This document shows positions 8,401 to 53,308 of a stretch of DNA of 58,319 nt, piece by piece. The notes below the pieces were generated by a model. It saw nothing but the letters and a program-made list of their open reading frames with translations. It was not told the DNA's origin and searched no databases. The position numbers and the translations under genes were made by a program. Origin of the DNA: Bacteroidaceae bacterium (lineage in GTDB: Bacteria > Bacteroidota > Bacteroidia > Bacteroidales > Bacteroidaceae); assembly GCA_017524545.1 (NCBI GenBank), contig JAFXVN010000056.1, positions 1 to 58,319 of the forward strand, in the 5' to 3' direction. Numbering within the stretch: position 1 is the first letter of the stretch; each line of letters opens with the position of its first letter.

Positions 8401-9052
8401 AGGGGGGAGTAAAGTTTGCGTCGCGCCACCACAAGCCTTCCTGCTCATTCCACAGCCCGCCGCCACACATGTTGCGCGTCCATTCGTAGCAGTCGCGGGC
8501 AAAAAGAATATAGCGGGTGTCGCCCGTGATGCTGTACATCTTGGCGTATGCCGGCATAGCCATCTGTATGGCATCAATCCACGTCCAGTAGTCTGTCCGG
8601 TGCTCAGCCATCTGCGCCTCCATGTTCACACGGCAACTGTCGAGCATTCGCTGGTCGCCAGTCATCTCATAGCGGTCAAGGTAGGTCTGTATGCAGCACT
8701 GGTCGTCGGCATTCCTTGTCCTGGTGCCGTTGCGAGGCGTCCACCTGTGGTAGTTGCCCCAGTCATCGACATACTTTATATAGCTTGGTTGCGGGTCGAT
8801 GCCGTAAAGCGCCATCAGTCCCTCGTAATACACCCCGCGCGTCCAAAGTGAGCTGGGGCGCTTCCTGCCAACAAAAGTATCTTTGGTGGGGTCGGGCCAC
8901 TTCGCCATGAAATAGCTGTTCACCCGCCGCGCCGCCTCAAGTACATCGGCACTTAAAGAAAAAGGTGAGAAGGTGAAAAGGTGAAAAAGTAAAAGAACAA
9001 GCACCTTCGCCTTCAACCATTGGGCAGCGTCATATTTATCCCAGTATTTCAC
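5450..9052 (-). CDS. GH105-GH106 fusion: unsaturated rhamnogalacturonyl hydrolase plus alpha-L-rhamnosidase
   Basis: A very long (up to 1,200 residues) two-enzyme polypeptide. Residues about 36-392 are a GH105 alpha/alpha barrel: NADDQCC (Asp116/117), YWTWIDAIQ (Asp160) and WSRGNGWV (228-235). From about 399 a GH106 alpha-L-rhamnosidase begins (RWWWLGSAVT, TLEITPLYG, FNDSYEVFGADW, RRGYRL), ending with a GH2-like jelly roll (VYINNTYVGCAW). GH105 removes the unsaturated uronic acid left by lyases and GH106 removes the next rhamnose, so the fusion joins consecutive steps. No in-frame ATG exists near the start: GTG 9052 or GTG 9004 must be used. The signal peptide (LVLLLFHLFTFSPFSLSA) is encoded by a repeat array. 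Further in-frame repeats lie at residues about 243-255 and 506-518. The start site is uncertain. Confidence 0.85.
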   Translation of the reverse strand: MKYWDKYDAAQWLKAKVLVLLLFHLFTFSPFSLSADVLEAARRVNSYFMAKWPDPTKDTFVGRKRPSSLWTRGVYYEGLMALYGIDPQPSYIKYVDDWGNYHRWTPRNGTRTRNADDQCCIQTYLDRYEMTGDQRMLDSCRVNMEAQMAEHRTDYWTWIDAIQMAMPAYAKMYSITGDTRYILFARDCYEWTRNMCGGGLWNEQEGLWWRDANFTPPYKESDGQNCYWSRGNGWVVAAYVKTIESIHNSQFIIHNEVSDFCEELKADYLAMMKALLKCQREDGFWNVSLMSPTTYGGPETSGTALFLMGMAWGVRNGLLPEQAYRPAIDKAWNAIATKALHKDGFIGYLQGTGKEPKDGQPVTYTSVPDFEDYGTGCVLLGAVEYYKLTKSPTSQAGARWWWLGSAVTEQGLKWQMQQMASHGIRTLEITPLYGVQGNDENNISFLSPEWMKMLEYTINEGKRQGIQIDMNLGTGWPFGSPETPLSEAACKLVVIDTLVEAGSTQVNPLPLREARGGSLIIQKDFKSKVKGKRRVIALYESRTRQKVKRAAPGGEGYVIDHFDSTAVAHYLARFDRAFKSSGAPMPATFFNDSYEVFGADWTPTLLSEFHARRGYRLEDKLQEFVDGDAQVISDYRETLSDLLLKNFTEQWVRWSHERGVKVRNQAHGSPANLIDIYAAVDIPEIEGFGLSDFGIKGLRTDPGMTRKNFSDLSMLKYASSAAHVTGKRLVSSETFTWLTEHFRTSLSQMKPDLDLMFCSGVNRMFFHGACYSPKDDPWPGWKFYASIDMSPTNSIWRDAPLLTSYIDFCQQRLQEGQPDNDFLVLLPVRNMWRTNLDKRLMLFEINSMDKKAPEFIATIMKIDSLGYDCDYISEKYLLGTSFTDGKLQTAAGTRYAALILPPGCILSKAARKHLERLKHQGAHIIYNIESRELAKYAKPEELRTALGMKMIRRKVGDGYRYFVSNLTPKSFGMREVRLASTGAIVTVSLRSGESCFIDALPDGKTTVTKPVDALQPQGQKYIHVSWSPLIDLSENKWSLSFIESQPAITDTMTIDGLKTWESLPNDSLKELMGTGVYETTFSLSANDAKNVAYRIDLGDVRESARVYINNTYVGCAWCVPFTLDFDRLLHEGENTIRIEVTNLPANRIAAYDRRGVKWRKFNEINVVDINYKRTTYGDWAPVPSGLNSYVRIYKRLMMMR
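7500..7537. repeat. Half copy of the GACCC...CTCCCTTAAAGGGAG hairpin element inside the GH105-GH106 gene
   Basis: Begins GACCCACCCC and contains the palindrome CCTCCCTTAAAGGGAGG, then GGGTTGAC. It matches the first half of the 66-bp elements at 19170 and 21076 in metH. Translated as NPLPLREARGGS in a loop of the GH106 domain. Confidence 0.75.
8287..8326. repeat. In-frame ATTATGA heptamer array inside the GH105 domain
   Basis: Five degenerate copies of the 7-mer ATTATGA/ATTGTGA within coding sequence, giving the peptide SIHNSQFIIHNE. It lies in the segment between the WSRGNGW motif and the next barrel helices. The same 7-mer forms the inverted-arm element at 34076-34178. Confidence 0.8.
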
Positions 9053-9091
9053 CTTTTCACTTTTTCAATTTTCAATTGTCAATTATCAATT
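8955..9091. repeat. Inverted-arm heptamer element over the start of the GH105-GH106 gene
   Basis: The left arm 8955-8995 is tandem AAGGTGAA-type units; the right arm 9046-9091 is TTTCACC/TCAATT-type units, i.e. largely the reverse complement. The 50-bp centre encodes AAQWLKAK-like residues. The element supplies both possible start codons and the hydrophobic signal peptide, and fills the gap to the DUF4294 gene, where no TAnnTTTG promoter is seen. Confidence 0.75.
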
Positions 9092-9828: not shown

Positions 9829-9944
9829 AGAATTATGTTTTTTTAATTCTTAGGCTTGTGCCATCCACCCCTCGACACAAACCCAACGAGCCACGATATG
9901 AAACCTCCCGCACCGTGCCTAAAAACCCCGAACAGCGAGCCTGA

Positions 9945-10040
9945 TAACTATTTTCAAGGCTTGATAATATATTTTCAAACCGTGATAATATATTTTCAAA
10001 GCTTGATAATATATTTTCAAGCCTTGAAAATAATTATGTA
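9945..10040. repeat. AT-rich element of four 21-bp units with inverted ends (copy 1)
   Basis: Units start at 9955, 9976, 9997 and 10018, each CAA-N6 followed by GATAATATATTTT (last unit diverged). The ends are inverted: CTATTTTCAAGGC at the left, GCCTTGAAAATAATTATG at the right. The element lies between the divergent promoters of DUF4294 and the radical SAM gene. A second copy is at 23831-23930. Translation of one frame gives YFQ-LII repeats and I do not regard it as a gene. Confidence 0.85.
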
Positions 10041-17828: not shown

Positions 17829-20800
17829 TTAGGATGATATGAACTTTGACAAGAGTTGTTCGCCTTCCTTGATGCTGATGCCGCGACGCTGGCAATAGTC
17901 GGCAAGCTGTTCACGGTCGATGCGCCCGACAGGGAAGTAAGTGGCATCGGGGTGGTTGATGAAGAGGCCGCACACGGAGGTGGAAGGCTGGATGCTATAG
18001 TGGTCGGTCAGAGTGATGCCAAGCCTCTGCTCTGCCTCCAGACGGTCGAAGACGATGCGCTTCAGCGAGTGGTCGGGACAGGTGGCATAACCGAAAGCAA
18101 CACGCAAGAGTGAAGAGTGAAAAGTGAAGAGTGAAGAATCAAAATCTACTCTTTCACCGAGCCATTCTGCTGCGGCTTCGGCCAGGCGGGCACAGAGGGC
18201 ATGGGTCATCAGACGCTCCTCTTCGTCGGCAGGTTCCGTTTTGGGGCGGGCTGTAACCACGAACATCCCGATTGGCGATGGCTGCTGCTCATTGAAGAAA
18301 TCCGAGAGACAACGGTAGTGATGGGCGGCTGTCTGGCTGCGGAGCATGGGCAGCAACTGCCCGTCTTTGCAGAGCACGATGTCATTGCCCCGCCCTATCG
18401 CCGGCTCTTCCTTATATAATGCCTCTACACTCAGGCTATCGCGTTGGATGCAAAATTCAAGGAAGTCCTTGCTCTCGCGGAGCGTCTTCTCAGCTTCTGG
18501 GTTGACCAGCAGCTGCGGCAGCGTTTCGCCCTTGAAGCCCCAGAACAGCAGGAACATGCGCCAGTCGATGAATTCCTTGAGGTCTTTAAGTGAAAAGTGA
18601 AAAGTGAAAAGTGAAGAATCAGAGTTACTATTAAAGGCAGGTAGTGAATATAATTCTTCACTCTTCACTCTTAACTCTTCACTCCCTCGGCGGTTAGCTT
18701 CCTGATAGGGTGTAAGCGGGGCATGGTGCTCGCTCCAGGCATCACGAATCTGTTGCTGCTCTGCCTTGATTTGCTCGATGAAATGGGGAGAATCCAATCG
18801 CTTGGCCAACACAGACGTTTGCGAGGCATCGCCACCATAAAGGACAAGACCATCGTAGAGCGGAGCCAGCTTGACAGCCGTGTGGACGGCCGACGTGGTT
18901 GCGCCGCCAACGAGGATGGGAACCTGCAGATGTTCTCTTTGGAATGTCTCGCAAAGCTTCTCCATCTCCTTCAAGGATGGCGTGATGAGGCCGCTAATGC
19001 CCACAAGCATTGGTTTGTGCTGTCGTGTTGCTTCGAGAATCGTCTCGCACGGCACCATTACCCCAAGGTCGATGACCTCGAAGCCATTACAGGAAAGCAC
19101 GATGCTGACAATGTTCTTGCCAATGTCGTGCACGTCGCCGTTGGCTGTCGCGAGGACTACACAAGGATAGACCCCTTCTGACTCCCCCTTAAAGGGGGAG
19201 AATTCCCTCCCTTTAAGGGAGGGTTGGGGTAGGTCCGTGAGAATTGCCACAGCGTCCTTCATCACCTGTGCCGAGCGTACCACTTGCGGCAGGAACATCT
19301 TGCCCTCGCCGAAGAGCTGCCCGATGCGCTCCATTGCCTGCATGAGGGGACCCTCGATGACGTGAATCGGCTCTCCATACTTGGCAAGCGCCTCGGGAAT
19401 GTCCTCTGCCAAGTGGCTACTGTCGCCTTTGGTCAAGGCATATTGAAGACGTTCCTCTATTGAGAGTGAAGAGTGAAGAGTGAAGGGTGAAGAGTGTTCC
19501 TCGACAGTTTTTTCACTTTTAACTTTTAACTTTTCACTTTCGGCGAGTAGCCTCTCTGTCGCTTCATCGTCGCTGTTCAAGATGACATCCTCCACAGCCC
19601 GGAGCAGGCAGGGCTCGATGTCGTCATAGACCTGAAGCATGGACGGATTGACAATCGCCATGTCAAGGCCTGCACGGATGGCATGATAGAGGAACACCGA
19701 GTGCATCGCCTCCCTTACCTTGTTGTTCCCACGGAAAGCAAACGACAGGTTGCTCACGCCTCCGCTTGTTTTCGAGTAGGGTAGGTGCTGCTTAATCCAC
19801 TCCACAGCACGAATAAAGTCGACGGCATACGCCTGGTGCTCCTTAATGCCCGTGCCGACGGAAAGGATGTTAACGTCGAATATGATGTCCTGCGGCGGGA
19901 AGCCCATGGAGGTCAGGAGCTTATAGGCCCGCTCTGCAATGGCAATTTTCCTTTCGTATGTTGTGGCCTGCCCCTCTTCGTCGAAAGCCATGACGACAAC
20001 AGCGGCACCGATGCGTCTCAGCTCAAGGGCTTTGGCCAGGAAGTCTTGCTCTCCTGCTTTGAGGCTGATGGAGTTGACGATGCACTTGCCTTGAGCGTTC
20101 TTCAGTCCTGCAAGAATCGTCGGCCAGTCGCTGCTGTCTATCATCAGGACGGCACGCCCCACGGCAGGCTCTCCGCTGATGTGGCGGCAGAAGGTTTGCA
20201 TCTCCTCCCGGCTATCAAGCATCGCATCGTCCATGTTGATGTCGATGACCGTCGCCCCGCCCTCTATCTGATTGCGAGCCACAGAGAGTGCCTCGCCATA
20301 TTGCTTCTCCGCGATGAGACGGGCAAACCGTCGGGAGCCTGCCACGTTGGTACGCTCTCCAACGTTCGTAATGTTCTGCTCCTGCCGGTCGATTAGCAAG
20401 GGTTCAAGGCCCGACACCCTCAGCTTCGTGTCTTTCTCTGGGACGACCCTCGGGCGGATGTCGCGCAGGGCTTGACTTATAGCCTTGATGTGATGCTCGT
20501 CTGTTCCGCAGCAACCTCCGGCGATATTGAGCAGTCCAGCTTCCGCCATCTGCCGAAGGTGGCTGGCTGTATAGTCGGGCAGTTCCTCGTACTCGCCCAT
20601 CTGGTTGGGCAAGCCCGCATTGGGATATATGGAAATAGGCAGGGGGACATTGGCCGAAAGCTGTTCGACGAAAGGCCGAAGGTCGGTAACGCCGAAGGAA
20701 CAGTTCAAGCCGAAGCTGAGAAGATAGGGGTAATGGCTGATGCTTGTATAGAAAGCCCACAAAGTCTGTCCCGTCAGGGTGCGTCCGCTGCGGTCGTTGA

Positions 20801-23830: not shown

Positions 23831-23930
23831 CACATAATTATTTTCAAGGTTTGATAATTTATTTTCAAGGCGTGAAAATATATTTTCAAAGCTTGATAAT
23901 ATATTTCCAAGGCTTGAAAATAGTTATGTG
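23831..23930. repeat. AT-rich element of four 21-bp units with inverted ends (copy 2)
   Basis: Units begin at 23845, 23866, 23887 and 23908, each CAAGG/CAAAG plus GATAATATATTTT-like sequence. The ends are inverted: CACATAATTATTTTCAAG and CTTGAAAATAGTTATGTG. Same structure as copy 1 at 9945-10040; both lie between divergent genes. Confidence 0.9.
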
Positions 23931-32494: not shown

Positions 32495-34084
32495 ATGATT
32501 AAGAAGTGTGAATTCCTGATTATAGGCAGCGGTGTGGCTGGCATGAGCTATGCGCTGAAGGTGGCTAACGCGGGCAAGGGAAAGGTCGTGCTCATCTGCA
32601 AGACGACCCTCGAAGAGGCTAATACGGCAAAGGCTCAGGGCGGCATCGCCTCCGTGACGAATCTGCTGGTGGACAACTTCGAGAAGCACATCGAGGACAC
32701 GATGATTGCGGGCGACTACATCAGCGACCCGGCGGCCGTGGAACAAGTGGTGAGGAATGCGCCGCAAGGCATTCGCGACCTCGTCCGCTGGGGCGTGAAC
32801 TTCGACAAGAAGGAGGACGGCGAGTTCGACCTGCACCGCGAGGGCGGGCACTCGGAGTTCCGCATCCTGCACCATGCCGACGACACCGGGGCCGAGATAC
32901 AGCGCGGCCTGATGGAGGCTGTACGCCAGAACCCCAACATCGAAGTGCTGGAGCATCACTTCGCCGTAGAAATCATCACGCAGCACCACCTCGGCATCCG
33001 TGTGACGCGCCGCACGCCCGACATCGAGTGCTATGGCGCATACATCCTCAATCCCGATACGGGCAAGGTCGATACCTACTTGAGCAAAGTCACCCTCATG
33101 GCGACGGGCGGCACGGGAGCCGTCTATGCCACGACCTCCAATCCCGACATCGCGACGGGCGACGGCATAGCGATGGTCTATCGTGCCAAAGGCAAGGTGA
33201 AGGACATGGAGTTCGTGCAGTTCCACCCGACGGTGCTCTACAATCCCCAGGAGACGCACCCCGCCTACCTCATCACCGAGGCGATGCGCGGCTACGGCGG
33301 CATCCTCAGGCTGCCCAACGGCGAGGAGTTCATGCAGAAGTACGACGAGCGACTCTCGCTCGCCCCGCGCGACATCGTGGCGCGTGCCATCGACCGCGAG
33401 ATGAAGATTCACGGCCTGGACCATGTCTGCCTCGACGTGACCCACAAAGACCCCGAGGAGACCAAGCACCACTTCCCCAACATCTATGCCAAGTGCCTCT
33501 CCATCGGCATCGACATCACCAAGCAGTACATCCCCGTTGCCCCCAGCGCCCACTACATGTGCGGCGGCATCAAGGTGGACCTCGACGGCCAGAGCAGCAT
33601 CCGCCGCCTCTATGCCGTGGGCGAATGCTCGTGCACAGGGCTGCACGGCGGCAACCGCCTGGCCAGCAATTCGCTCATCGAAGCGGTCGTCTATGCCGAC
33701 GCGGCAGCCAAGCACTCCTTGGAGGTCATCGACAGATACGACTTCAACGACAAGGTGCCGGAGTGGAACGACGAGGGCACGATGTCGAACGAAGAGAAAG
33801 TGCTCATCGCCCAGGACGTGAAGGAGGTGAACCAAATCATGAGCACCTACGTTGGTATCGTGCGTAGCGACCTGCGTCTGCATCGCGCCTGGGAGCGTCT
33901 CGACCTCCTGTACGAAGAGACGGAGCACCTCTTCAAGCGCGTCAAGCCGACAAAAGACATCTGCGAGCTCCGCAACATGATAAATGTGGGCTACCTCATC
34001 ACCCGTCAGGCTCTCGAACGCAAGGAAAGCCGAGGCCTGCACTACACCATCGACTACGCAAAGCACGCTTTAGATAATTCATAA
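32495..34084 (+). CDS. nadB: L-aspartate oxidase
   Basis: A 529-residue FAD enzyme that oxidises L-aspartate to iminoaspartate, the first step of de novo NAD synthesis. Features are the FAD-binding N-terminus FLIIGSGVAGMSYALKVA, AKAQGGIASV, the HREGGHSEFRILHHADDTG segment, MEFVQFHPTVLY, APSAHYMCGGIKVDLDG and GLHGGNRLASNSLIEA, which separate NadB from fumarate reductase flavoproteins. ATG 32495 (MIKKCEFLIIG) follows the promoter. In anaerobes fumarate can serve as acceptor. The last two residues and the stop codon lie in a heptamer repeat. nadA and nadC are not in the window. Confidence 0.93.
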   Translation: MIKKCEFLIIGSGVAGMSYALKVANAGKGKVVLICKTTLEEANTAKAQGGIASVTNLLVDNFEKHIEDTMIAGDYISDPAAVEQVVRNAPQGIRDLVRWGVNFDKKEDGEFDLHREGGHSEFRILHHADDTGAEIQRGLMEAVRQNPNIEVLEHHFAVEIITQHHLGIRVTRRTPDIECYGAYILNPDTGKVDTYLSKVTLMATGGTGAVYATTSNPDIATGDGIAMVYRAKGKVKDMEFVQFHPTVLYNPQETHPAYLITEAMRGYGGILRLPNGEEFMQKYDERLSLAPRDIVARAIDREMKIHGLDHVCLDVTHKDPEETKHHFPNIYAKCLSIGIDITKQYIPVAPSAHYMCGGIKVDLDGQSSIRRLYAVGECSCTGLHGGNRLASNSLIEAVVYADAAAKHSLEVIDRYDFNDKVPEWNDEGTMSNEEKVLIAQDVKEVNQIMSTYVGIVRSDLRLHRAWERLDLLYEETEHLFKRVKPTKDICELRNMINVGYLITRQALERKESRGLHYTIDYAKHALDNS

Positions 34085-34178
34085 TTCTCAATTCATAATT
34101 CATAATTCATAATTAGGCTACGCTCGAAGGCTTGGCGAAGGAAATAATTATGAATTATGAATTAAGAATTATGAATTG
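34076..34178. repeat. Inverted-arm ATTCATA/ATTATGA element between nadB and trkH
   Basis: Left arm 34076-34115 is (AATTCATA)n, the centre 34116-34143 is GC-rich (GGCTACGCTCGAAGG and on), the right arm 34145-34178 is (ATTATGA)n. It can fold into a hairpin of about 35 bp. It provides the nadB stop codon and is the only sequence in front of trkH. Confidence 0.85.
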
Positions 34179-34186
34179 AAATAACT

Positions 34187-35659
34187 ATGAAAAAAGGCAT
34201 CCTCGGCATACTCATCATCATGGAGAGCTTCTTCCTGTTGCTCTCCATGGCAGTCGCTATCTTCTATGGCGAGGATGGCTGGCTCAGCTTCCTGCTGACG
34301 GCTCTTGGCACGGTAGGCATCGGCGCATTCTGCATCCTGCTGAGCCGCAAGGGAGAGAACAAGCGAATGCGCAGAGCCGACAACTTCCTCATCGTCGCCC
34401 TTTCGTGGATAGTGTTCTCCGTCATCGGCATGGTGCCGTTCCTTTGCCTCACGGACATGGACTTGGCAAGTGCCTTTTTCGAGACCATGAGCGGCTTCAC
34501 CACAACAGGCGCGACGTGCATCAGCGATATCGACAGCCTGCCCCGTTCCCTGCTCTTCTGGCGAGCCATAACCCAGTGGATAGGCGGCCTTGGCATCGTG
34601 GTCTTCTCCTTTGCCCTCATCCCCGTCTATGAGATGAAGAACAGCAACCTCTATTCTGCCGAGGTGACTGGCCTCGGACTCGACAAGCTGCGACCCAAGA
34701 TTGGCTCCACGGCAAGGCGCGTGCTCTTCATCTACCTGGTGCTCACTGGGGTCTGCGCCTTCCTCTACTGGCTCGGGCCGATGAACCTCTACGATGCCGT
34801 CTGCCATTCCTTCACGACGATAGCGACCGGTGGCTTCAGTACCCACTCCGCCAGCATCGCCTATTTCCACAGCAGCTATATAGAATATGTGGCCTCCTTC
34901 TTCATGCTGATAAGCAGCATCAATTTCTCGCTCTACTACTACATGAGCATCCGCCGGAGCCGCGTACTCTTCACCAACGAGGAGGTGCACGTCTTCTGCG
35001 GCTATATCGCTGCGGCGGTGGCGGGCTTCATGCTGCTTTTCTACTTTGCGCCGGTTCCCGAGAGTGCAAAGGACACGTTGCCGATGGGCTTTGAGGAGAC
35101 CTTCCGCTCGGCACTGTTCCACGTGAGTTCCGTGGCAACGAGCACCGGCTTCTCGGCACAGAAGTTCGACTATGTGTCTTGGGGAGCTTCGTTCTGGATG
35201 CCCACCGTTGTCATTATGGCAATCGGCGCGTGTGCGGGTAGCACGGCAGGCGGCATCAAGGTCATAAGAATCATCATCTGCGCCAAGAGCGTCTTCAACG
35301 AACTCATCCTGATGCTGCACCCCAGGGCAGTCCTTGGTGTGCGTGTCGGAAAACAAATAGTGCCTGAGCACAAGGTGCGTCAGGCACTATCATTCATCTT
35401 CATTTATATGCTGCTGGTGGTCATTGCCATGACCTGCTACTCTTTGCTTGGAGCCGACGTGGACACTGCCCTTGGCAGCAGCATCAGCATGTTGAGCAAC
35501 GTGGGACCTGGCACCGGTGCCACCGGACCCGCCAGCACTTTCGCCGGTGTGCCGGCTTCTGGCAAGTGGCTAATGAGCACCTACATGCTCATCGGCCGTC
35601 TGGAAATCTTCACCGTGCTCTTCCTCCTGATGCCCAACTACTGGAAGGACAGAAAATAG
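34187..35659 (+). CDS. trkH: TrkH-family potassium transporter
   Basis: A 490-residue polytopic membrane protein of the Trk/Ktr superfamily for K+ uptake. The four selectivity-filter (P-loop) segments are visible: SGFTTTGATCISDID, TIATGGFSTHSAS, SVATSTGFSAQKF and NVGPGTGATGPA. Linking hydrophobic helices are clear, and CAGSTAGGIKVIRI is family-typical. The cytoplasmic regulatory subunit TrkA is not next to it. No TAnnTTTG promoter is seen; it may be read from nadB through the inverted-arm element or from a promoter within it. Confidence 0.92.
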   Translation: MKKGILGILIIMESFFLLLSMAVAIFYGEDGWLSFLLTALGTVGIGAFCILLSRKGENKRMRRADNFLIVALSWIVFSVIGMVPFLCLTDMDLASAFFETMSGFTTTGATCISDIDSLPRSLLFWRAITQWIGGLGIVVFSFALIPVYEMKNSNLYSAEVTGLGLDKLRPKIGSTARRVLFIYLVLTGVCAFLYWLGPMNLYDAVCHSFTTIATGGFSTHSASIAYFHSSYIEYVASFFMLISSINFSLYYYMSIRRSRVLFTNEEVHVFCGYIAAAVAGFMLLFYFAPVPESAKDTLPMGFEETFRSALFHVSSVATSTGFSAQKFDYVSWGASFWMPTVVIMAIGACAGSTAGGIKVIRIIICAKSVFNELILMLHPRAVLGVRVGKQIVPEHKVRQALSFIFIYMLLVVIAMTCYSLLGADVDTALGSSISMLSNVGPGTGATGPASTFAGVPASGKWLMSTYMLIGRLEIFTVLFLLMPNYWKDRK

Positions 35660-39897: not shown

Positions 39898-39906
39898 CAA
39901 TAATAT

Positions 39907-39999
39907 AATTAAGAATTAAGAGTTCTGACTTATGAGTTAAGAGTTGTCGGCGCAAAATTACGAAATTATTCTTAATTCTTAACTCTTAATTCTTAATTT
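39907..39999. repeat. Inverted-arm AATTAAG element between polA and the polyprenyl synthase gene
   Basis: Left arm 39907-39945 is AATTAAG/AGTTAAG units; right arm 39965-39999 is CTTAATT/CTTAACT units. The centre holds the polA -7 box. The arms lie across the divergent promoter region. Confidence 0.8.
39953..39960 (-). promoter_or_regulatory. Promoter -7 element (TAATTTTG) of polA
   Basis: Exact TAnnTTTG, 55 bp upstream of ATG 39897, located in the centre of an inverted-arm element whose right arm covers the -33 region. Confidence 0.5.
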
Positions 40000-40004
40000 C
40001 TTCG

Positions 40005-42495: not shown

Positions 42496-43500
42496 ATGAT
42501 AACAGGTCGCTTCGCACCATCGCCCACAGGCCGTATGCACCTCGGCAATGTGTTCTGTGCTTTGCTCTCATGGCTTTCCGCCAAGAGCAAGGGCGGACAG
42601 TGGCGGCTCCGCATCGAGGACATCGACCCCCAGCGTTCGCGTCGCGACTTTGCCATGCAGTTGATGGACGACTTGCAATGGCTCGGCTTGCCTTGGGACG
42701 GCGAAGTGGTCTGGCAAAGCCAACGCAGTGACATCTACGAGCACTACCTTCGTCTCCTGCAGGATGCAGGCCTCACCTACCCTTGCTTCTGCACGCGGGC
42801 CGACATCATGGCAACGCAAGCCCCTCACGAAACGGACGGCCGCATCGTCTATGCCGGCACCTGTCGGGGCAAGATTCTCGATGAAACCATGAAAAATACG
42901 CCTGCTGCCATAAGGCTAATGGTGCCAGGTGAGGTCATTTCCTTTTGCGATGGACATTACGGCGAACAGCAAGTCAACCTTGCTCATCAATGTGGCGATT
43001 ACATCCTCCGCCGCAAGGATGGAGCTTGGGCTTATCAGCTGGCTGTTGTAGTTGACGATGCCCTAATGGGCGTGACAGAAGTCGTCCGAGGTCGCGACCT
43101 TCTGCTCAGCACCCCCCAACAACTTCATTTGCGCCAGACTATTGAGTCATTAAGTTCTCCCCATAGAGGGCAATTGCCCGTTGATAGCGGTGCAATTGGG
43201 GAGAGCCTTGCTCGACGGAGGGCAAAAGTTAGAGGGGGTCTCTACTTCTTCCATCATCCTTTGCTTGTAAACGAAAGCGGCCAGCGCCTTTGCAAACGCG
43301 ACCGCTCCCTCGACCTTTCTTCCCTTCGCCAGAAGCATACCTCACCAAAAGACATCATCGGCTATCTCGCCTTCCTTGCAGGTATCCTTCCCTCCCCCAC
43401 TCCTTCCTTCCCCCAAGACCTCCTGCCCCTCTTCGCTTGGCAACGAGTGCCAAAAGAGGACATCATTGCAACATTCCCTAATTTACCGAACTCACGTTAA
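42496..43500 (+). CDS. gluQ: Glutamyl-queuosine tRNA(Asp) synthetase
   Basis: A 334-residue truncated glutamyl-tRNA synthetase without anticodon-binding domain, which attaches glutamate to queuosine in tRNA-Asp. Motifs are GRFAPSPTGRMHLGN (HIGH equivalent), RIEDIDPQRSRR, zinc ligands PCFCTRAD and YAGTCRG, DYILRRKDGAWAYQLAVVVDD, EVVRGRDLL and the KMSKS equivalent QRLCKRDRS. Residues about 220-248 (SSPHRGQLPVDSGAIG and on) have no counterpart in the family; they are encoded by a GC-rich repeat at 43155-43240 placed just before FFHHPLLVNESG. The enzyme should still fold, as the insert is at a surface loop. Confidence 0.9.
   Translation: MITGRFAPSPTGRMHLGNVFCALLSWLSAKSKGGQWRLRIEDIDPQRSRRDFAMQLMDDLQWLGLPWDGEVVWQSQRSDIYEHYLRLLQDAGLTYPCFCTRADIMATQAPHETDGRIVYAGTCRGKILDETMKNTPAAIRLMVPGEVISFCDGHYGEQQVNLAHQCGDYILRRKDGAWAYQLAVVVDDALMGVTEVVRGRDLLLSTPQQLHLRQTIESLSSPHRGQLPVDSGAIGESLARRRAKVRGGLYFFHHPLLVNESGQRLCKRDRSLDLSSLRQKHTSPKDIIGYLAFLAGILPSPTPSFPQDLLPLFAWQRVPKEDIIATFPNLPNSR
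43155..43240. repeat. GC-rich hairpin element inserted in gluQ
   Basis: TTCTCCCC...GGGGAGAG forms the outer stem (43155-43204), with GGGCAATTGCCC inside; the element ends GTTAGAGGGGGTC, like the GTTAGAGAGGGTC end of the metH element at 21076-21141. In frame with gluQ. Confidence 0.7.
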
Positions 43501-48880: not shown

Positions 48881-48920
48881 AGCATAAAGAAGAAGATACT
48901 CATCCTGTTGTTTGATAAAA

Positions 48921-48961
48921 ATTGAAACACCCCACCTTGCTCTCTTGAGGGCAAGGTGGGG
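48921..48961 (-). terminator. Rho-independent terminator of the sdh operon
   Basis: On the minus strand, CCCCACCTTGC (48961-48951) and GCAAGGTGGGG (48940-48930) form an 11-bp stem around a 10-bp loop, followed by TGTTTCAATTTTT. It lies 20 bp after the sdhB stop. The loop and stem composition resemble the GC-rich hairpin elements seen elsewhere. Confidence 0.8.
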
Positions 48962-48980
48962 GATAATTATGATGCGTCCT

Positions 48981-49739
48981 TTAGTCTGCCAGTTTTGCGC
49001 AGATGAACTCGCGGTTGAGGCGGGCGATGTTCGAGATGGTTTCGCACTTGGGGCATACAGCTTCGCAGGCACGGGTGTTGGTGCAGTTGCCGAAGCCCAG
49101 TTCGTCCATCTTTGCTACCATTGCCTTCGCACGCTTGGCGGCTTCTACCTTACCCTGAGGAAGCAGGGCAAGTTGCGAAACTTTAGATGAGACGAAGAGC
49201 ATAGCAGAGCCGTTCTTGCAGGCTGCCACACAAGCTCCGCAACCGATGCAGCTGGCGCAATCCATTGCTTCGTCGGCATCTTCCTTCGGAATCAGGATAG
49301 CGTTGGCATCCTGAGCCTGACCTGTACGAACTGTTGTATAGCCGCCTGCCTGCATAATCTTGTCGAAGGCGTTGCGGTCGACCATGCAGTCTTTGATGAC
49401 AGGGAAACCAGCAGAGCGCCAAGGCTCTACGGTGATGGTCTCGCCGTCCTTGAACTTACGCATATAGAGCTGGCAGGTAGTGGCGCCGCGCTCTGTCTTG
49501 CCGTGCGGTGTGCCGTTGATGTAGAGCGAGCACATGCCGCAGATACCTTCGCGGCAGTCGTGGTCGAACACGAAAGGCTCCTTGCCCTCGTTGATAAGCT
49601 CCTCGTTCATGATGTCGAGCGCCTCGAGGAACGAGGTGTCGTCGGGAATGTTCTTCAACTCATGCGTGTCGAAGTGACCCTTGTCCTTAGGACCGTTCTG
49701 CTTCCAGAACTTTATCGTAACACTTATATTCTTAGCCAT
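48981..49739 (-). CDS. sdhB: Fumarate reductase/succinate dehydrogenase iron-sulfur subunit
   Basis: A 252-residue Fe-S subunit that passes electrons between the flavoprotein and the membrane quinone. The [2Fe-2S] ligands are in [20 protein letters not shown], and the [4Fe-4S]/[3Fe-4S] ligands in [18 protein letters not shown] and [17 protein letters not shown]. It is the last gene of the operon, but is separated from sdhA by a 522-bp repeat-bounded element with a four-helix-bundle gene. In this bacterial group the enzyme mainly reduces fumarate during anaerobic growth (succinate formation). Confidence 0.95.
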
Positions 49740-49747
49740 GATGTTTT

Positions 49748-50269
49748 TTAGTTGACAAGTAAACGAGTTGACAAGTTGACGAGTTGTTAGCTTATTGACT
49801 TGATGAGTGCAGACAACATACTTATAATCTCATGTATCTGGCTTATCAACTTTTGAGCTTCCTCTATTGGCATATAGTCAAGATTCTTTGAGATAATAAG
49901 CTGAGTCTCCAGTTCGGACGCAGAACCAAGTGCATTGCTAAGAAACTTAACAGTCTCCTTGTCATATACTCGTCCGTAGCCTTCGGCAATATTTGAAGGA
50001 ATTGACACAGCAGCGCGACGCATCTGAGAAACGATTCCAAAGAGTTCATCCTTTGGAAAAGCCCTTGTTGCAACATATATTGCTGCAACATGCTCCATGC
50101 TCTTCTGCCAAACTATCAAATCCTTGTGACTCTTCACTTTCTCTTCTCGTTTACTTAAATTACTAATTCTTTTCCTTATTTTAACTCGTCAACTTGTCAA
50201 CTCATTAACTTGTCAACCTCCAAAAGGAAACAACTTGTTAACTCGTCAACTCGTCAACTCGTCAACTAA
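49748..50269. mobile_element. Putative mobile element with inverted 8-bp-repeat arms carrying a four-helix-bundle gene
   Basis: The element starts TTAGTTGAC (49748) and ends GTCAACTAA (50269), an exact 9-bp inverted terminus. The left arm to 49789 is AGTTGACA/CGAGTTGA units; the right arm from about 50170 is CTCGTCAA/CTTGTCAA units, the inverse. Runs of T flank both ends. The element splits the sdhA-sdhB gene pair, and its right end supplies the sdhA stop codon (TAG in TTAG). The only gene inside is the four-helix-bundle gene. There is no transposase. Confidence 0.6.
49787..50137 (-). CDS. Four-helix-bundle protein (S23/Avd-like, TIGR02436 type)
   Basis: A 116-residue all-helical protein with the family's typical beginning [20 protein letters not shown] and the conserved [19 protein letters not shown], then [18 protein letters not shown] and a final amphipathic helix. 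The family was first found in 23S rRNA intervening sequences and includes Avd of diversity-generating retroelements; members bind nucleic acid but most have no known function. The start must be GTG 50137, after AGAAGAGAAA. It lies in the sdh operon in the same direction, flanked by inverted 8-bp repeat arms. No reverse transcriptase or variable repeat is found nearby, so a retroelement is unlikely. Confidence 0.88.
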
Positions 50270-52248
50270 TTTTTATAATTACGTTGTTGAACCTTAATGA
50301 TTTCATAGTTGAGGGGCTCTTTGATGAGTTCGGGAGCCTTGTCGTCGCTGCCTTGATAGTCCCAGCAGCCAACGTAGAAGAAGTTCTCGTCGTCGCGCTT
50401 TGCTTCGCCTTCCTCTGTCTGGTGCTCCTCGCGGAAGTGACCGCCGCAGCTCTCTTCGCGATGCAGGGCGTCGTAAGCCACAAGCTCACCCATGAGGATG
50501 AAGTCGCGCAGATGGATGGCCTTGTCCAGCTCGACGTTCAAGCCTTCCTTGCTTCCAGGAATAAAGAGGTTGGTGTCGAACTCTTTGCGCAAAGCCTTGA
50601 GCAGCTTCAAGCCTTCCTCCAAGCCTTGCTTCGTGCGACCCATGCCGACGTGCTCCCACATGATGTGGCCAAGCTCTTTGTGGATGGAATCAACAGAACG
50701 CTTGCCCTTGATGTTCATCAGGCGGTCAATCTCCTTCTCAACAGCCTTCTCCGTCTCTGCGAACTCAGGCATATCGGTAGAGAGACGCGGCCAGATGGCT
50801 TGGTCTGCGAGGTAGTTCTGGATAGTGTAAGGCAGTACGAAGTAACCGTCGGCCAGGCCTTGCATAAGCGCAGAAGCACCGAGGCGGTTTGCTCCGTGGT
50901 CGGAGAAGTTGCACTCGCCGATTGCGAAGAGGCCAGGAATGGTGGTCTGCAACTCGTAGTCAACCCAAACGCCGCCCATCGTGTAGTGGATGGCGGGGAA
51001 TATCATCATGGGATAGTAGTAATCGACGCCGTTCTTCGTACAAGCTTTCTCGCCCGGATTGACGTCCGTAATCTCTTCATACATGTCGAAGAGGTTGCCG
51101 TAACGCTGGCGAATCTCGTCAATGCCGAGGCGCTGGATGCTCTCAGAGAAGTCGAGGAACACGGCAAGACCTGTGTTGTTCACGCCGAAGCCCTTGTCGC
51201 AGCGCTCCTTTGCAGCGCGGCTGGCAACGTCACGAGGCACGAGGTTACCAAAGGCGGGATAGCGGCGCTCGAGATAGTAGTCGCGGTCTTCCTCGGGAAT
51301 CTCATAGCCCTGCTTTGTGCCTGCCTGCAATGCCTTTGCGTCCTCCAGCTTCTTGGGAACCCAGATACGGCCATCGTTACGCAGAGACTCGGACATCAGG
51401 GTGAGCTTCGACTGCTTGTCACCATGAACAGGAATACAAGTTGGGTGAATCTGAACGTATGAAGGATTAGCCATCATAGCGCCCTTACGGAAGCACTGAA
51501 CGGCAGCCGTGCAGTTACAACCCATCGCGTTGGTTGAGAGGAAGTAGGTGTTGCCATAACCGCCAGTTGCGATTACGACAGCGTTTGCGCTGAAGCGCTC
51601 CAGCTTGCCGGTCACAAGGTTCTTGGCAATGATGCCGCGAGCACGACCGTCAACAATCACAACATCCTCCATTTCATAACGAGTGAACAGCTTCACCTTG
51701 CCTCTTTGAACTTCCTTCGAGAGAGAAGAATAAGCGCCAAGAAGGAGCTGCTGGCCTGTCTGTCCCTTAGCATAGAACGTGCGGCTCACTTGAGCGCCAC
51801 CGAATGAACGGTTTGCCAACATGCCGCCATACTCGCGAGCAAAGGGAACGCCCTGAGCCACGCACTGGTCGATGATGTTATTCGATACTTCTGCCAAACG
51901 ATAGACATTGGCTTCGCGAGCACGATAGTCACCGCCTTTCACCGTATCATAAAAGAGACGATAGACGGAGTCGCCGTCGTTCTGATAGTTCTTGGCTGCA
52001 TTGATACCGCCCTGAGCTGCGATAGAGTGAGCACGACGGGGCGAGTCCTGGATGCAGAAGTTATACACATTGAAGCCCATCTCGGCAAGAGAAGCGGCTG
52101 CACTTGCACCAGCAAGACCTGTGCCGACAACGATAACATCGAGCTTCAGCTTGTTCTTCGGGTTCACCAGACGCTGGTGAGCTTTATATTCTTTCCATTT
52201 CTCAGGCACTGGACCTGCGGGAATCTTCGAATCTAATACTTTTGCCAT
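50266..52248 (-). CDS. sdhA: Fumarate reductase/succinate dehydrogenase flavoprotein subunit
   Basis: A 660-residue FAD subunit. FAD binding is shown by [21 protein letters not shown] and [17 protein letters not shown] (with the FAD-linking His), and the active site by [35 protein letters not shown] and [20 protein letters not shown]. Length and the C-terminus ([12 protein letters not shown]-like) fit the type B (di-heme) enzymes of Bacteroidetes. ATG 52246-52248 follows a TTTACCA array that replaces the usual short spacer after sdhC. The stop codon lies inside the end of the mobile-like element downstream. Confidence 0.95.
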
Positions 52249-52253
52249 AATTG

Positions 52254-52290
52254 CATTTACCATTTAATTCATTTACCATTTACCATTTAA
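52254..52290. repeat. TTTACCA heptamer array between sdhC and sdhA
   Basis: Four to five units of ATTTACC/ATTTAAT in the 38-bp spacer; the sdhC stop codon (52287-52289) is inside the array. Confidence 0.7.
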
Positions 52291-52982
52291 GCACCGCAAC
52301 TGCCACTGCAACAGGGGCTGAAGTTCTGGATTGCAAACACAATCACTACTGCTGCGAACATCAGCACAACGAGGGTTGCGTAGATGTTGCCGATGCAGCG
52401 CCAGCGCTGGAACCACACTTTGCCGCTCCAACCCATTGTCTGCAAAGAGCTCCAGATGCCGTGAGTCAGGTGGAACCACAGAGCGCAGAGCCATACAAGA
52501 TACAGAGCCGAATAGACAGGACAGCCGAAGGTCTTCTTAATCCAGAAGACACCGTCGGCAGCGTTCTGTGCGTACTCGCCTTCGATAAGCTCAGCTGCCA
52601 TCATGTTCCACCAGAAGTTGTAGAGGTGCAGGCAAAGGCCCAGGCAGATGATGATGCCGAGAACCAGCATGTTCTGGCTCGCCCACTCTACCTTTTCGGG
52701 CTTGTCGGTAATGGCATAGCGGTTGTTGCCGCGAGCCTTACGGTTCTGAATGGTCAGCCAGAAAGCATAGATGAAATGAATAACCACAAGGCCGGCCAAG
52801 CCTACGGTTGCCGCCACAGCGTACCAGTTGGCTCCCAGCATCTCACAGATCATGTTGTAGCCGTCCTCACTGATGAGTGCCACAACATTCATTGACGCAT
52901 GGAACGTCAGGAACAGGACCAGTGCAATGCCGGTCACGGACATCACTACTTTCCTGCCGATTGATGAATTGATTAACCACAT
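52287..52982 (-). CDS. sdhC: Fumarate reductase/succinate dehydrogenase cytochrome b subunit
   Basis: A 231-residue membrane anchor with five hydrophobic helices and the histidines expected for a di-heme type B anchor (LFLTFHASMN, GLVVIHFIYAFW, LCLHLYNFWW, LWFHLTHGIW). It binds heme and quinone. First gene of the operon, with a promoter at 53058-53088 and a leader of about 70 nt. The C-terminus CCSGSCGA is cysteine-rich. Confidence 0.92.
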   Translation of the reverse strand: MWLINSSIGRKVVMSVTGIALVLFLTFHASMNVVALISEDGYNMICEMLGANWYAVAATVGLAGLVVIHFIYAFWLTIQNRKARGNNRYAITDKPEKVEWASQNMLVLGIIICLGLCLHLYNFWWNMMAAELIEGEYAQNAADGVFWIKKTFGCPVYSALYLVWLCALWFHLTHGIWSSLQTMGWSGKVWFQRWRCIGNIYATLVVLMFAAVVIVFAIQNFSPCCSGSCGA

Positions 52983-53126: not shown

Positions 53127-53144
53127 TACCTAAAAAAGGAAAAG

Positions 53145-53294
53145 AAGTTATGAAAGGGAGTTAAAATGAGGAGTTATGAAGGGGAGTTATGATGAGCCGT
53201 TACCCTTTTTCGACTAAAGGTTGCCGCCAAAGCTATCGGCCCATCATAACTCCTCAATTTAACTCCCCACTATAACTCCTCATTATAACTCCTT
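53145..53294. repeat. Inverted-arm GGAGTTATGA element in front of mnmG
   Basis: Left arm 53145-53196 is four units of 11-14 bp (GGAGTTATGAAG type); right arm 53242-53294 is four units of CATAACTCCTCA type, the inverse; centre 45 bp. In the mnmG mRNA it would form a stem of about 50 bp ending 14 bp before the start codon. Confidence 0.85.
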
Positions 53295-53308
53295 AAAACA
53301 AATAGCTG

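Follow-up and report, generated by a model that had tools for sequence, protein, structure and literature searches.

Why does a gene for a four-helix-bundle protein lie between short tandem repeats in the middle of the sdhA–sdhB pair of a Bacteroidaceae bacterium? We analysed the window, i.e. the whole stretch of 58,319 nucleotides, together with its own draft genome and with loci from related and distant bacteria. We read the sdhA–sdhB element as, most likely, a minimal mobile element that behaves in part like a homing element.

The element between sdhA and sdhB

The 522-bp segment at 49748–50269 contains one TIGR02436/PF05635 (S23) gene enclosed by oppositely oriented 8-bp arrays. It has the following parts and neighbours:

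49787..50137, minus strand: S23-type four-helix-bundle gene, 116 aa, GTG start (ORF and profile matches)
49748..49786, minus strand: 3′ arm, 8-bp tandem array, stopping immediately ahead of sdhB
50231..50269, minus strand: 5′ outer arm, beginning at the sdhA stop codon
50183..50217, minus strand: 5′ inner array, best pairing partner of the 3′ arm (94%)
50266..52263, minus strand: sdhA, upstream neighbour
48981..49739, minus strand: sdhB, downstream neighbour

The termini are exact inverted repeats, TTAGTTGAC (49748–49756) and GTCAACTAA (50261–50269), and the 8-bp tandem arrays extend over 49750–49786 and 50183–50267, confirming the inverted ends and opposite tandem arms described in the initial annotation. 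Complementarity is 80% between 49748–49798 and 50219–50269, and 94% between 49751–49785 and 50183–50217. The arm score of the element is 30; in 3000 random placements within the window, the 99th percentile is 13.5 and the maximum is 30.

The three genes are all on the minus strand. The sdhA open reading frame extends to 50266 and sdhB begins at 49739, and the TAG stop codon of sdhA comes from the outer arm of the element, bearing out the proposed insertion between the two genes that reaches into the sdhA stop. T runs had also been noticed outside both ends. The right-hand run is present, but it is coding sequence of sdhA, and the Lys-Asn end is also present at empty sites. Therefore, the T runs do not represent a duplicated target. 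The RNA of the element folds strongly (z −7.2), and the fold encloses the ORF. An Rfam scan of window positions 48900–52500 gives no match near the element.

The S23 protein

The product of 49787–50137 matches TIGR02436 (E 1e-38; 131.9 bits against a curated cut-off of 24) and PF05635 (E 7e-39). The S23 half of the earlier "S23/Avd-like" label therefore stands, but the Avd half does not reach curated cut-offs: the bAvd and DGR-Avd profiles score 30.7 bits (cut-off 40) and 28.4 bits (cut-off 80), respectively. The PDB relatives of the protein, 2rld and 2gsc, are each deposited with five chains, and the X. campestris S23 protein is termed a homopentamer in PMC4990558. TIGR02436 is present in 55 of 61 genus genomes and in 153 of 198 phylum genomes; the 12 matches in the window's own genome correspond to 11 genes, one gene being split into two matches. 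Purifying selection acts on the protein: of 19 pairs, the 13 whose dS is finite have a dN/dS of 0.02–0.13, and the remaining six are saturated.

PADLOC gives no defence match for the S23 protein, and 50,697 phage records give no match at E 1e-5. The element's gene, which is its sole gene and belongs to PF05635, has no transposase match, including to the Y1 (TnpA-REP) transposase, and no site-specific endonuclease is found in the S23 form of the element. To our knowledge, S23 has no catalytic site.

The weak sequence matches to bAvd and DGR-Avd would agree with a DGR-type retro-mobility, in which S23 takes the part of Avd and the reverse transcriptase is provided in trans; the sense orientation of S23 genes described below is compatible with an RNA intermediate. 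However, both scores are below cut-off, and the reverse transcriptase profile (PF00078, RVT_1) has no match in seven of nine S23-rich genomes (drafts listed as 83–89% complete), which makes this route unlikely. The draft genome of the window has one RVT_1 match, on another contig. We regard retro-mobility of this type as highly improbable.

Inverted arrays flank S23 genes

An arm score of 14 is our usual cut-off. Ten of the 11 TIGR02436 genes in the window's own genome lie between matching inverted tandem arrays of 7–11 bp units (scores 19.5–40), with units that vary from gene to gene. The exception, L012, is a partial and divergent S23 match with an arm score of 8.0, which is retained and counted as a miss. 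We scored 79 ORFs of 90–160 aa in an 810-kb sample of this genome, made up of 40 stretches and the window, leaving out those less than 300 nt from a stretch end. All eight intact S23 ORFs reach 14, versus none of the 71 other ORFs; among larger ORFs of the sample, 17 of 447 do so.

The same holds beyond this genome. Matching arms (at least 14) are present in 162 of 201 S23 genes from Bacteroidota, cyanobacterial plasmids, and other phyla, versus 3–12% for swapped arms, although these loci are not independent because they are mostly best-scoring and partly orthologous. The count is 74 of 79 for genus loci (swapped arms, 5.2%), 15 of 30 for the best phylum loci (2.8%), 12 of 12 for cyanobacterial plasmid loci chosen from 36 plasmid records (12%), and 61 of 80 for loci from many phyla (5.2%). 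The last set is the best 80 of at least 577 confirmed candidates and comprises Bacteroidota, Patescibacteria, Nitrospirae, Planctomycetes, Deltaproteobacteria, Chloroploca, Acidobacteria, Clostridia, and others. Loci with less than 40 (or 60) nt of flank were left out. The enrichment of arrays beside TIGR02436 genes that the initial annotation had anticipated is thus found.

Elements scoring below 14 were left out of the copy-number, wobble, orientation, and co-inheritance counts, and arms with a tandem score below 12 were also left out of the copy-number count. In 200 of 220 S23 arms the unit is 7 or 8 bp long; the median is 4.62 copies, and 148 of 220 arms round to 4 or 5.

Among 74 genus elements, arm mismatches comprise 58 wobble-compatible and 100 incompatible changes. 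Despite the strong fold of the sdhA–sdhB element, this test speaks against the arms being constrained mainly by sense-RNA pairing. The same mismatches show an excess of A versus G (C versus T) when the 5′ arm is compared with the complement of the 3′ arm, a direction opposite to the one that sense-RNA wobble pairing would preserve.

Gene and arms are inherited together

The gene and its arms form one inherited unit, and each lineage has its own repeat unit. Across 2306 different-site pairs from 69 genus elements, protein identity correlates with same-strand arm similarity (Mantel rho 0.25; 500 permutations reach at most 0.083). In the 16 different-site pairs with 70–85% protein identity, arm similarity is 0.60 on the same strand and 0.15 on the opposite strand. 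Since the opposite-strand similarity is flat, the orientation of the arms relative to the gene is kept.

In seven elements of the sdh lineage, arm identity is 74–100%, as against 19–64% at the fourfold sites of the gene; short anchors served to locate the arms, which biases the arm figure towards conserved ends. The 3′ arm, located by its last seven letters, is 83–100% identical. The arms, like the S23 gene, seem to be conserved beyond synonymous sites.

Related elements are present at unrelated sites, yet they also recur at sdhA–sdhB in distant Bacteroidota. Among 202 elements, 54 pairs have an S23 identity of at least 80%; both neighbours are common to 39 pairs and at least one to 42, whereas 12 pairs share none, some of these including a locus whose flank is short on one side. 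The sdhA–sdhB site is common to 24 of the 202 elements, which have several unit types.

The S23 lineage of the window is site-faithful. We checked 12 of its 17 best named relatives, mainly ones with AGTTGAC-like units; these 12 are 55–87% identical and originate from Prevotella, Bacteroides, Muribaculaceae, and soil Bacteroidetes. All 12 have sdhA upstream and 11 have sdhB downstream, the sequence of L203 ending before the sdhB position could be read. Of the remaining five, L207 and L209 are at sdhA–sdhB, and L202, L205, and L208 are not.

This recurrence is compatible with elements that return to one site in a homing-like manner, or with ancient vertical descent followed by loss. At the sdh site, S23 and SdhA identities correlate weakly (rho 0.31). 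Between the window and L195, dS is 0.88 for S23 and 0.33 and 0.28 for SdhA and SdhB, respectively; between the window and L194, it is about equal for the three proteins. The incongruence of host and element, clear in one host pair but not in the other, is at most suggestive. Counting against mobility, no movement has been observed, and just 15 of the 30 best phylum loci have matching arms. Vertical descent with loss accounts for part of the distribution, as 39 of the 54 close pairs keep both neighbours and S23 and SdhA identities are correlated at the sdh site.

S23 elements occupy junctions of codirectional genes

Empty sites are frequent in relatives. In the sdhA–sdhB survey, 48 of 61 genomes have a recognised sdhB, and the gap was read at 30 loci, including that of the window. 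The gap is 1–6 nt in 19 of these, 24–165 nt in eight, and occupied by an S23 element in three (526, 535, and 648 nt). The 60-nt gap of G031 holds arm-like remnants without a gene. In the pta–ackA survey (ackA in 18 of 20 genomes; 17 gaps read), S23 is present in two gaps (505 and 517 nt), and the rest are 13–164 nt, several of them being one-way arrays. These short gene-less arrays, in G031, G058, G013, G046, and G028, have a unit that differs per genome. At korA–korB, 17 gaps were read from 20 genomes: two hold S23 (436 nt), five hold genes of another family, GxxExxY (461–645 nt), and ten are short (2–33 nt). Here the array takes the place of the korA C-terminus. We found no clean target duplication, as expected of an IS or MITE, at sdhA–sdhB, pta–ackA, or korA–korB; at the first and last of these, the junctions are too altered to read one.

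The claim of a mobile unit is thus supported, by the empty sites and by related gene-with-arms units at unrelated sites. The S23 gene is not a universal occupant of sdhA–sdhB with unrelated flanks, and arrays are enriched beside such genes.

Of 162 elements, 82 have a clear orientation: S23 is sense to both neighbours in 75, mixed in four, and antisense in three. A cruder count gives 53 of 64 in sense. On cyanobacterial plasmids, S23 genes split cas6/cas4 (twice), cmr2/cmr3, and ribonucleotide reductase beta/alpha, and at the last site the S23 gene is antisense to its neighbours. The loci splitting CRISPR genes are L185, L186, and L192. An rRNA scan of 20 of the 80 many-phyla loci found no rRNA-resident copy.

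Could the element instead be a vertically inherited host device, in which RNase III cuts an mRNA hairpin made by the arms and so sets the protein ratio of the operon, with S23 as a modulator? The sense orientation between codirectional genes, the stable fold enclosing the ORF, and the many same-site pairs agree with such a device, as does the RNase III excision described for the rRNA-resident S23 intervening sequence (IVS) in PMC4990558. However, presence is patchy, with empty sites of 1–6 nt in close relatives, related elements are found beside unrelated genes, and the arm mismatches disfavour sense-RNA pairing. We consider a host device unlikely and prefer a mobile element.

Other small repeats are found at the loci surveyed. 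A different palindromic element, rich in CCCTCCC/GGGAGGG, is present in the sdhA–sdhB gap of L145 (165 nt) and the pta–ackA gap of L287 (150 nt), and a motif resembling it is at 43385–43415 of the window. In a KSB1 genome (L218), an S23 element has two matches to Acido-Lenti-1 RNA (RF01687; 2986–3031 and 3559–3604) close by, and this RNA might itself be a small repeat of a related kind.

GxxExxY genes have the same layout

GxxExxY (PDDEXK_3), an unrelated family, has the same layout of a gene between arrays. It was identified by TIGR04256 (E 1.5e-41; one protein scanned) and PF13366; the korA–korB cases were called from ORFs, of which one was profile-scanned and three coincide with PF13366 matches. 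Arms of at least 14 are present at 18 of 26 genus loci (swapped arms, 6%) and 17 of 29 phylum loci (swapped arms, 4.6%), a few of these matches not being tandem arrays by eye. In 12 of 16 GxxExxY arms the unit is 9 bp long, and the median copy number is 2.89. The best PDB resemblance is a weak one to T7 endonuclease I (E 0.049), and PADLOC gives no defence match for the one protein submitted. In a published case, a GxxExxY gene adjoins a reverse transcriptase. There is thus more than a single kind of unit: lineages own distinct repeats, and the GxxExxY family follows the S23 layout.

The sharing of korA–korB by S23 (2 of 17 gaps) and GxxExxY (5 of 17), along with the similarity to T7 endonuclease I, would agree with homing by nucleases encoded elsewhere, the S23 elements being passengers of GxxExxY elements. 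Yet the arrays of the two families differ in period and copy number, and the draft genomes G002, G003, G008, G012, G024, and G028 have S23 matches without a PF13366 match. Passenger homing is the most improbable of the explanations weighed here.

Gene-less arrays

At least six further inverted-arm repeats without a gene had been reported in the window. Six exist, with inverted scores of 12.5–29.5:

34070..34178, no strand: gene-less inverted array pair, AATTCAT-type unit, loop core AGGCTACG
18585..18685, no strand: gene-less inverted array pair, AAGTGAA / TCTTCAC
53140..53295, no strand: gene-less inverted array pair, 13-bp unit
39900..40000, no strand: gene-less inverted array pair, AATTAAG
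8955..9091, no strand: gene-less inverted array pair, AAAAGGTG
19460..19545, no strand: gene-less inverted array pair, weak (score 12.5, under 14)

The array pair at 1910–2180 is direct and not inverted. A loop core like AGGCTACGCCCT...GCGAA..AAATA is common to gene-less inverted-array elements of ~100–150 bp with differing array units (window 34060–34190; L028:5320–5455; L032:13655–13785; L046:15070–15225; L050:8765–8910). These compact elements look like deletion derivatives. Two arrays at 9942–10032 and 23834–23922, ~14 kb apart, have a nearly identical 21-bp unit (ATAATATATTTTCAAGGCTTG).

The own-genome sample has 156 arrays in 810 kb. Given roughly ten S23 genes, most arrays cannot belong to S23 genes. 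We compared array density with the TIGR02436 match count in 42 genus genomes, using 9–80 kb each of hand-picked stretches away from listed S23 matches. Arrays per 100 kb number 1.1 in the five genomes with no S23 match, 5.1 at one or two matches, 10.0 at three to five, and 10.5 at six or more (14 genomes); the Spearman correlation, calculated without phylogeny correction, is 0.36 (p 0.02). Shuffled sequence gives no arrays in 1169 kb. As exceptions, the S23-poor genome G007 is array-rich and the S23-rich genome G059 has no arrays in 20 kb. A link between S23 and the arrays is thus supported, insofar as array density rises with S23 count. A RAYT/REP-like spreading is not upheld, given the 156 arrays in 810 kb, the two arrays in one of the five genomes without an S23 match, and an S23 family for which we know of no catalytic site.

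With so many gene-less arrays, and with one-way arrays of differing units at a single junction (pta–ackA), the arrays might be ordinary microsatellites, arising by slippage and hairpin-templated repair at junctions where S23 genes are merely tolerated. Against such an origin, the two arms of an element match each other, the repeat unit tracks the protein lineage, copy number depends on the gene family (S23 versus GxxExxY), arm conservation exceeds that of fourfold sites, and arrays are few in genomes without an S23 match. We consider it very unlikely.

Discussion

The nearest prior description is the Coxiella IVS paper (PMC4990558), which reports tandem heptamers upstream of the S23 ORF. There, the authors consider that Coxiella S23p is probably not produced in vivo and that its ORF is decaying, find no growth effect of S23p in E. 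coli, and repeat an older idea that the S23 ORF served mobility. The first three of these points speak against an active element. The sdhA–sdhB element resembles 23S rRNA IVSs in its S23 ORF, complementary ends, sense orientation to the host transcript, and patchy presence. In contrast, it lies between protein genes and not within rRNA, both of its arms are tandem arrays, and gene-less pairs and a second gene family follow the same plan. The rRNA-resident form of the element is probably the 23S rRNA IVS.

Short intergenic 7-bp arrays are also described in two papers: TAACTGA heptamers in Beggiatoaceae and cyanobacteria (169 direct sets, one indirect; PMC4679880), and GGGAATC heptamers in Xanthomonas and Nostoc, for which the authors saw no general link to mobile elements and of which Xanthomonas has 70–75 close convergent (inverted) pairs (PMC4692102). 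The near-absence of indirect TAACTGA sets and the missing general link count against the mobile reading. The words "S23", "four helix", and "intervening (sequence)" are absent from the main texts of both. Unlike those heptamers, the arrays here flank S23 genes, also at 12 of 12 cyanobacterial plasmid loci. Among the top-ranked matches of literature searches on S23 or four-helix genes with repeats, on heptamer repeats, and on IVSs with heptamers, with most subscription papers and all bioRxiv preprints outside their scope, no title or abstract opening reports the link, and a search of like scope found no mention of TIGR02436.

In REP/RAYT systems, one gene family, encoding a Y1 (TnpA-REP) transposase, is linked to many gene-less repeats. 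S23 is likewise apparently tied to many gene-less repeats, but the S23 element is without a Y1 transposase and its units vary between lineages. Homing elements, e.g. inteins and group I introns, recur at one conserved site and have empty alleles. The S23 element also recurs at one conserved site across distant hosts (sdhA–sdhB, 24 of 202) with empty alleles (19 of 30), but the S23 form is without splicing or a nuclease, and some S23 lineages change site.

We think it likely that the S23 gene and its inverted arrays, set at a junction of codirectional genes, form a minimal mobile element that would work as follows. The element consists of an S23 gene between two inverted arrays of ~4–5 units of 7–8 bp each, set at the short junction of neighbouring codirectional genes with the S23 gene in the same sense. 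The S23 protein, whose relatives were crystallised as pentamers, would bind to an arm at its roughly five repeat cores, or else to the hairpin formed by the arms; a ratio of five cores per pentamer is our inference. The putative ligand is nucleic acid, probably a DNA hairpin or cruciform. By marking or protecting this structure, S23 would allow copies of the element to reach other junctions or to return to an empty cognate site. Cutting and joining would be carried out by host nucleases and repair enzymes, and in the sister elements cleavage may be due to GxxExxY, a PDDEXK-type protein. Deletions in such elements would have left the gene-less pairs and single arrays.

A wider reading, taken as a whole, seems to us nearly evenly balanced, leaning slightly to the negative. 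It holds that there may be a bacteria-wide class of tiny gene-carrying mobile elements, whose defining feature would be, instead of a transposase, lineage-private inverted tandem arrays that are read by the enclosed protein through about five cores of 7–8 nt (a pentameric S23 ring) or three of 9 nt (a GxxExxY nuclease). To this class would belong, as resident, derived, or dead forms, the rRNA IVSs, the cyanobacterial and Xanthomonas heptamers, and many hairpins between genes. If this is true, two abundant unexplained families, the four helix bundle protein and GxxExxY, would have a role, many bacterial 7-mer repeats would have a suggested origin that joins them with the puzzle of the rRNA intervening sequences, and mobility would be possible without an obvious transposase. 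The pairing of protein and array predicts binding specificities that are directly testable.
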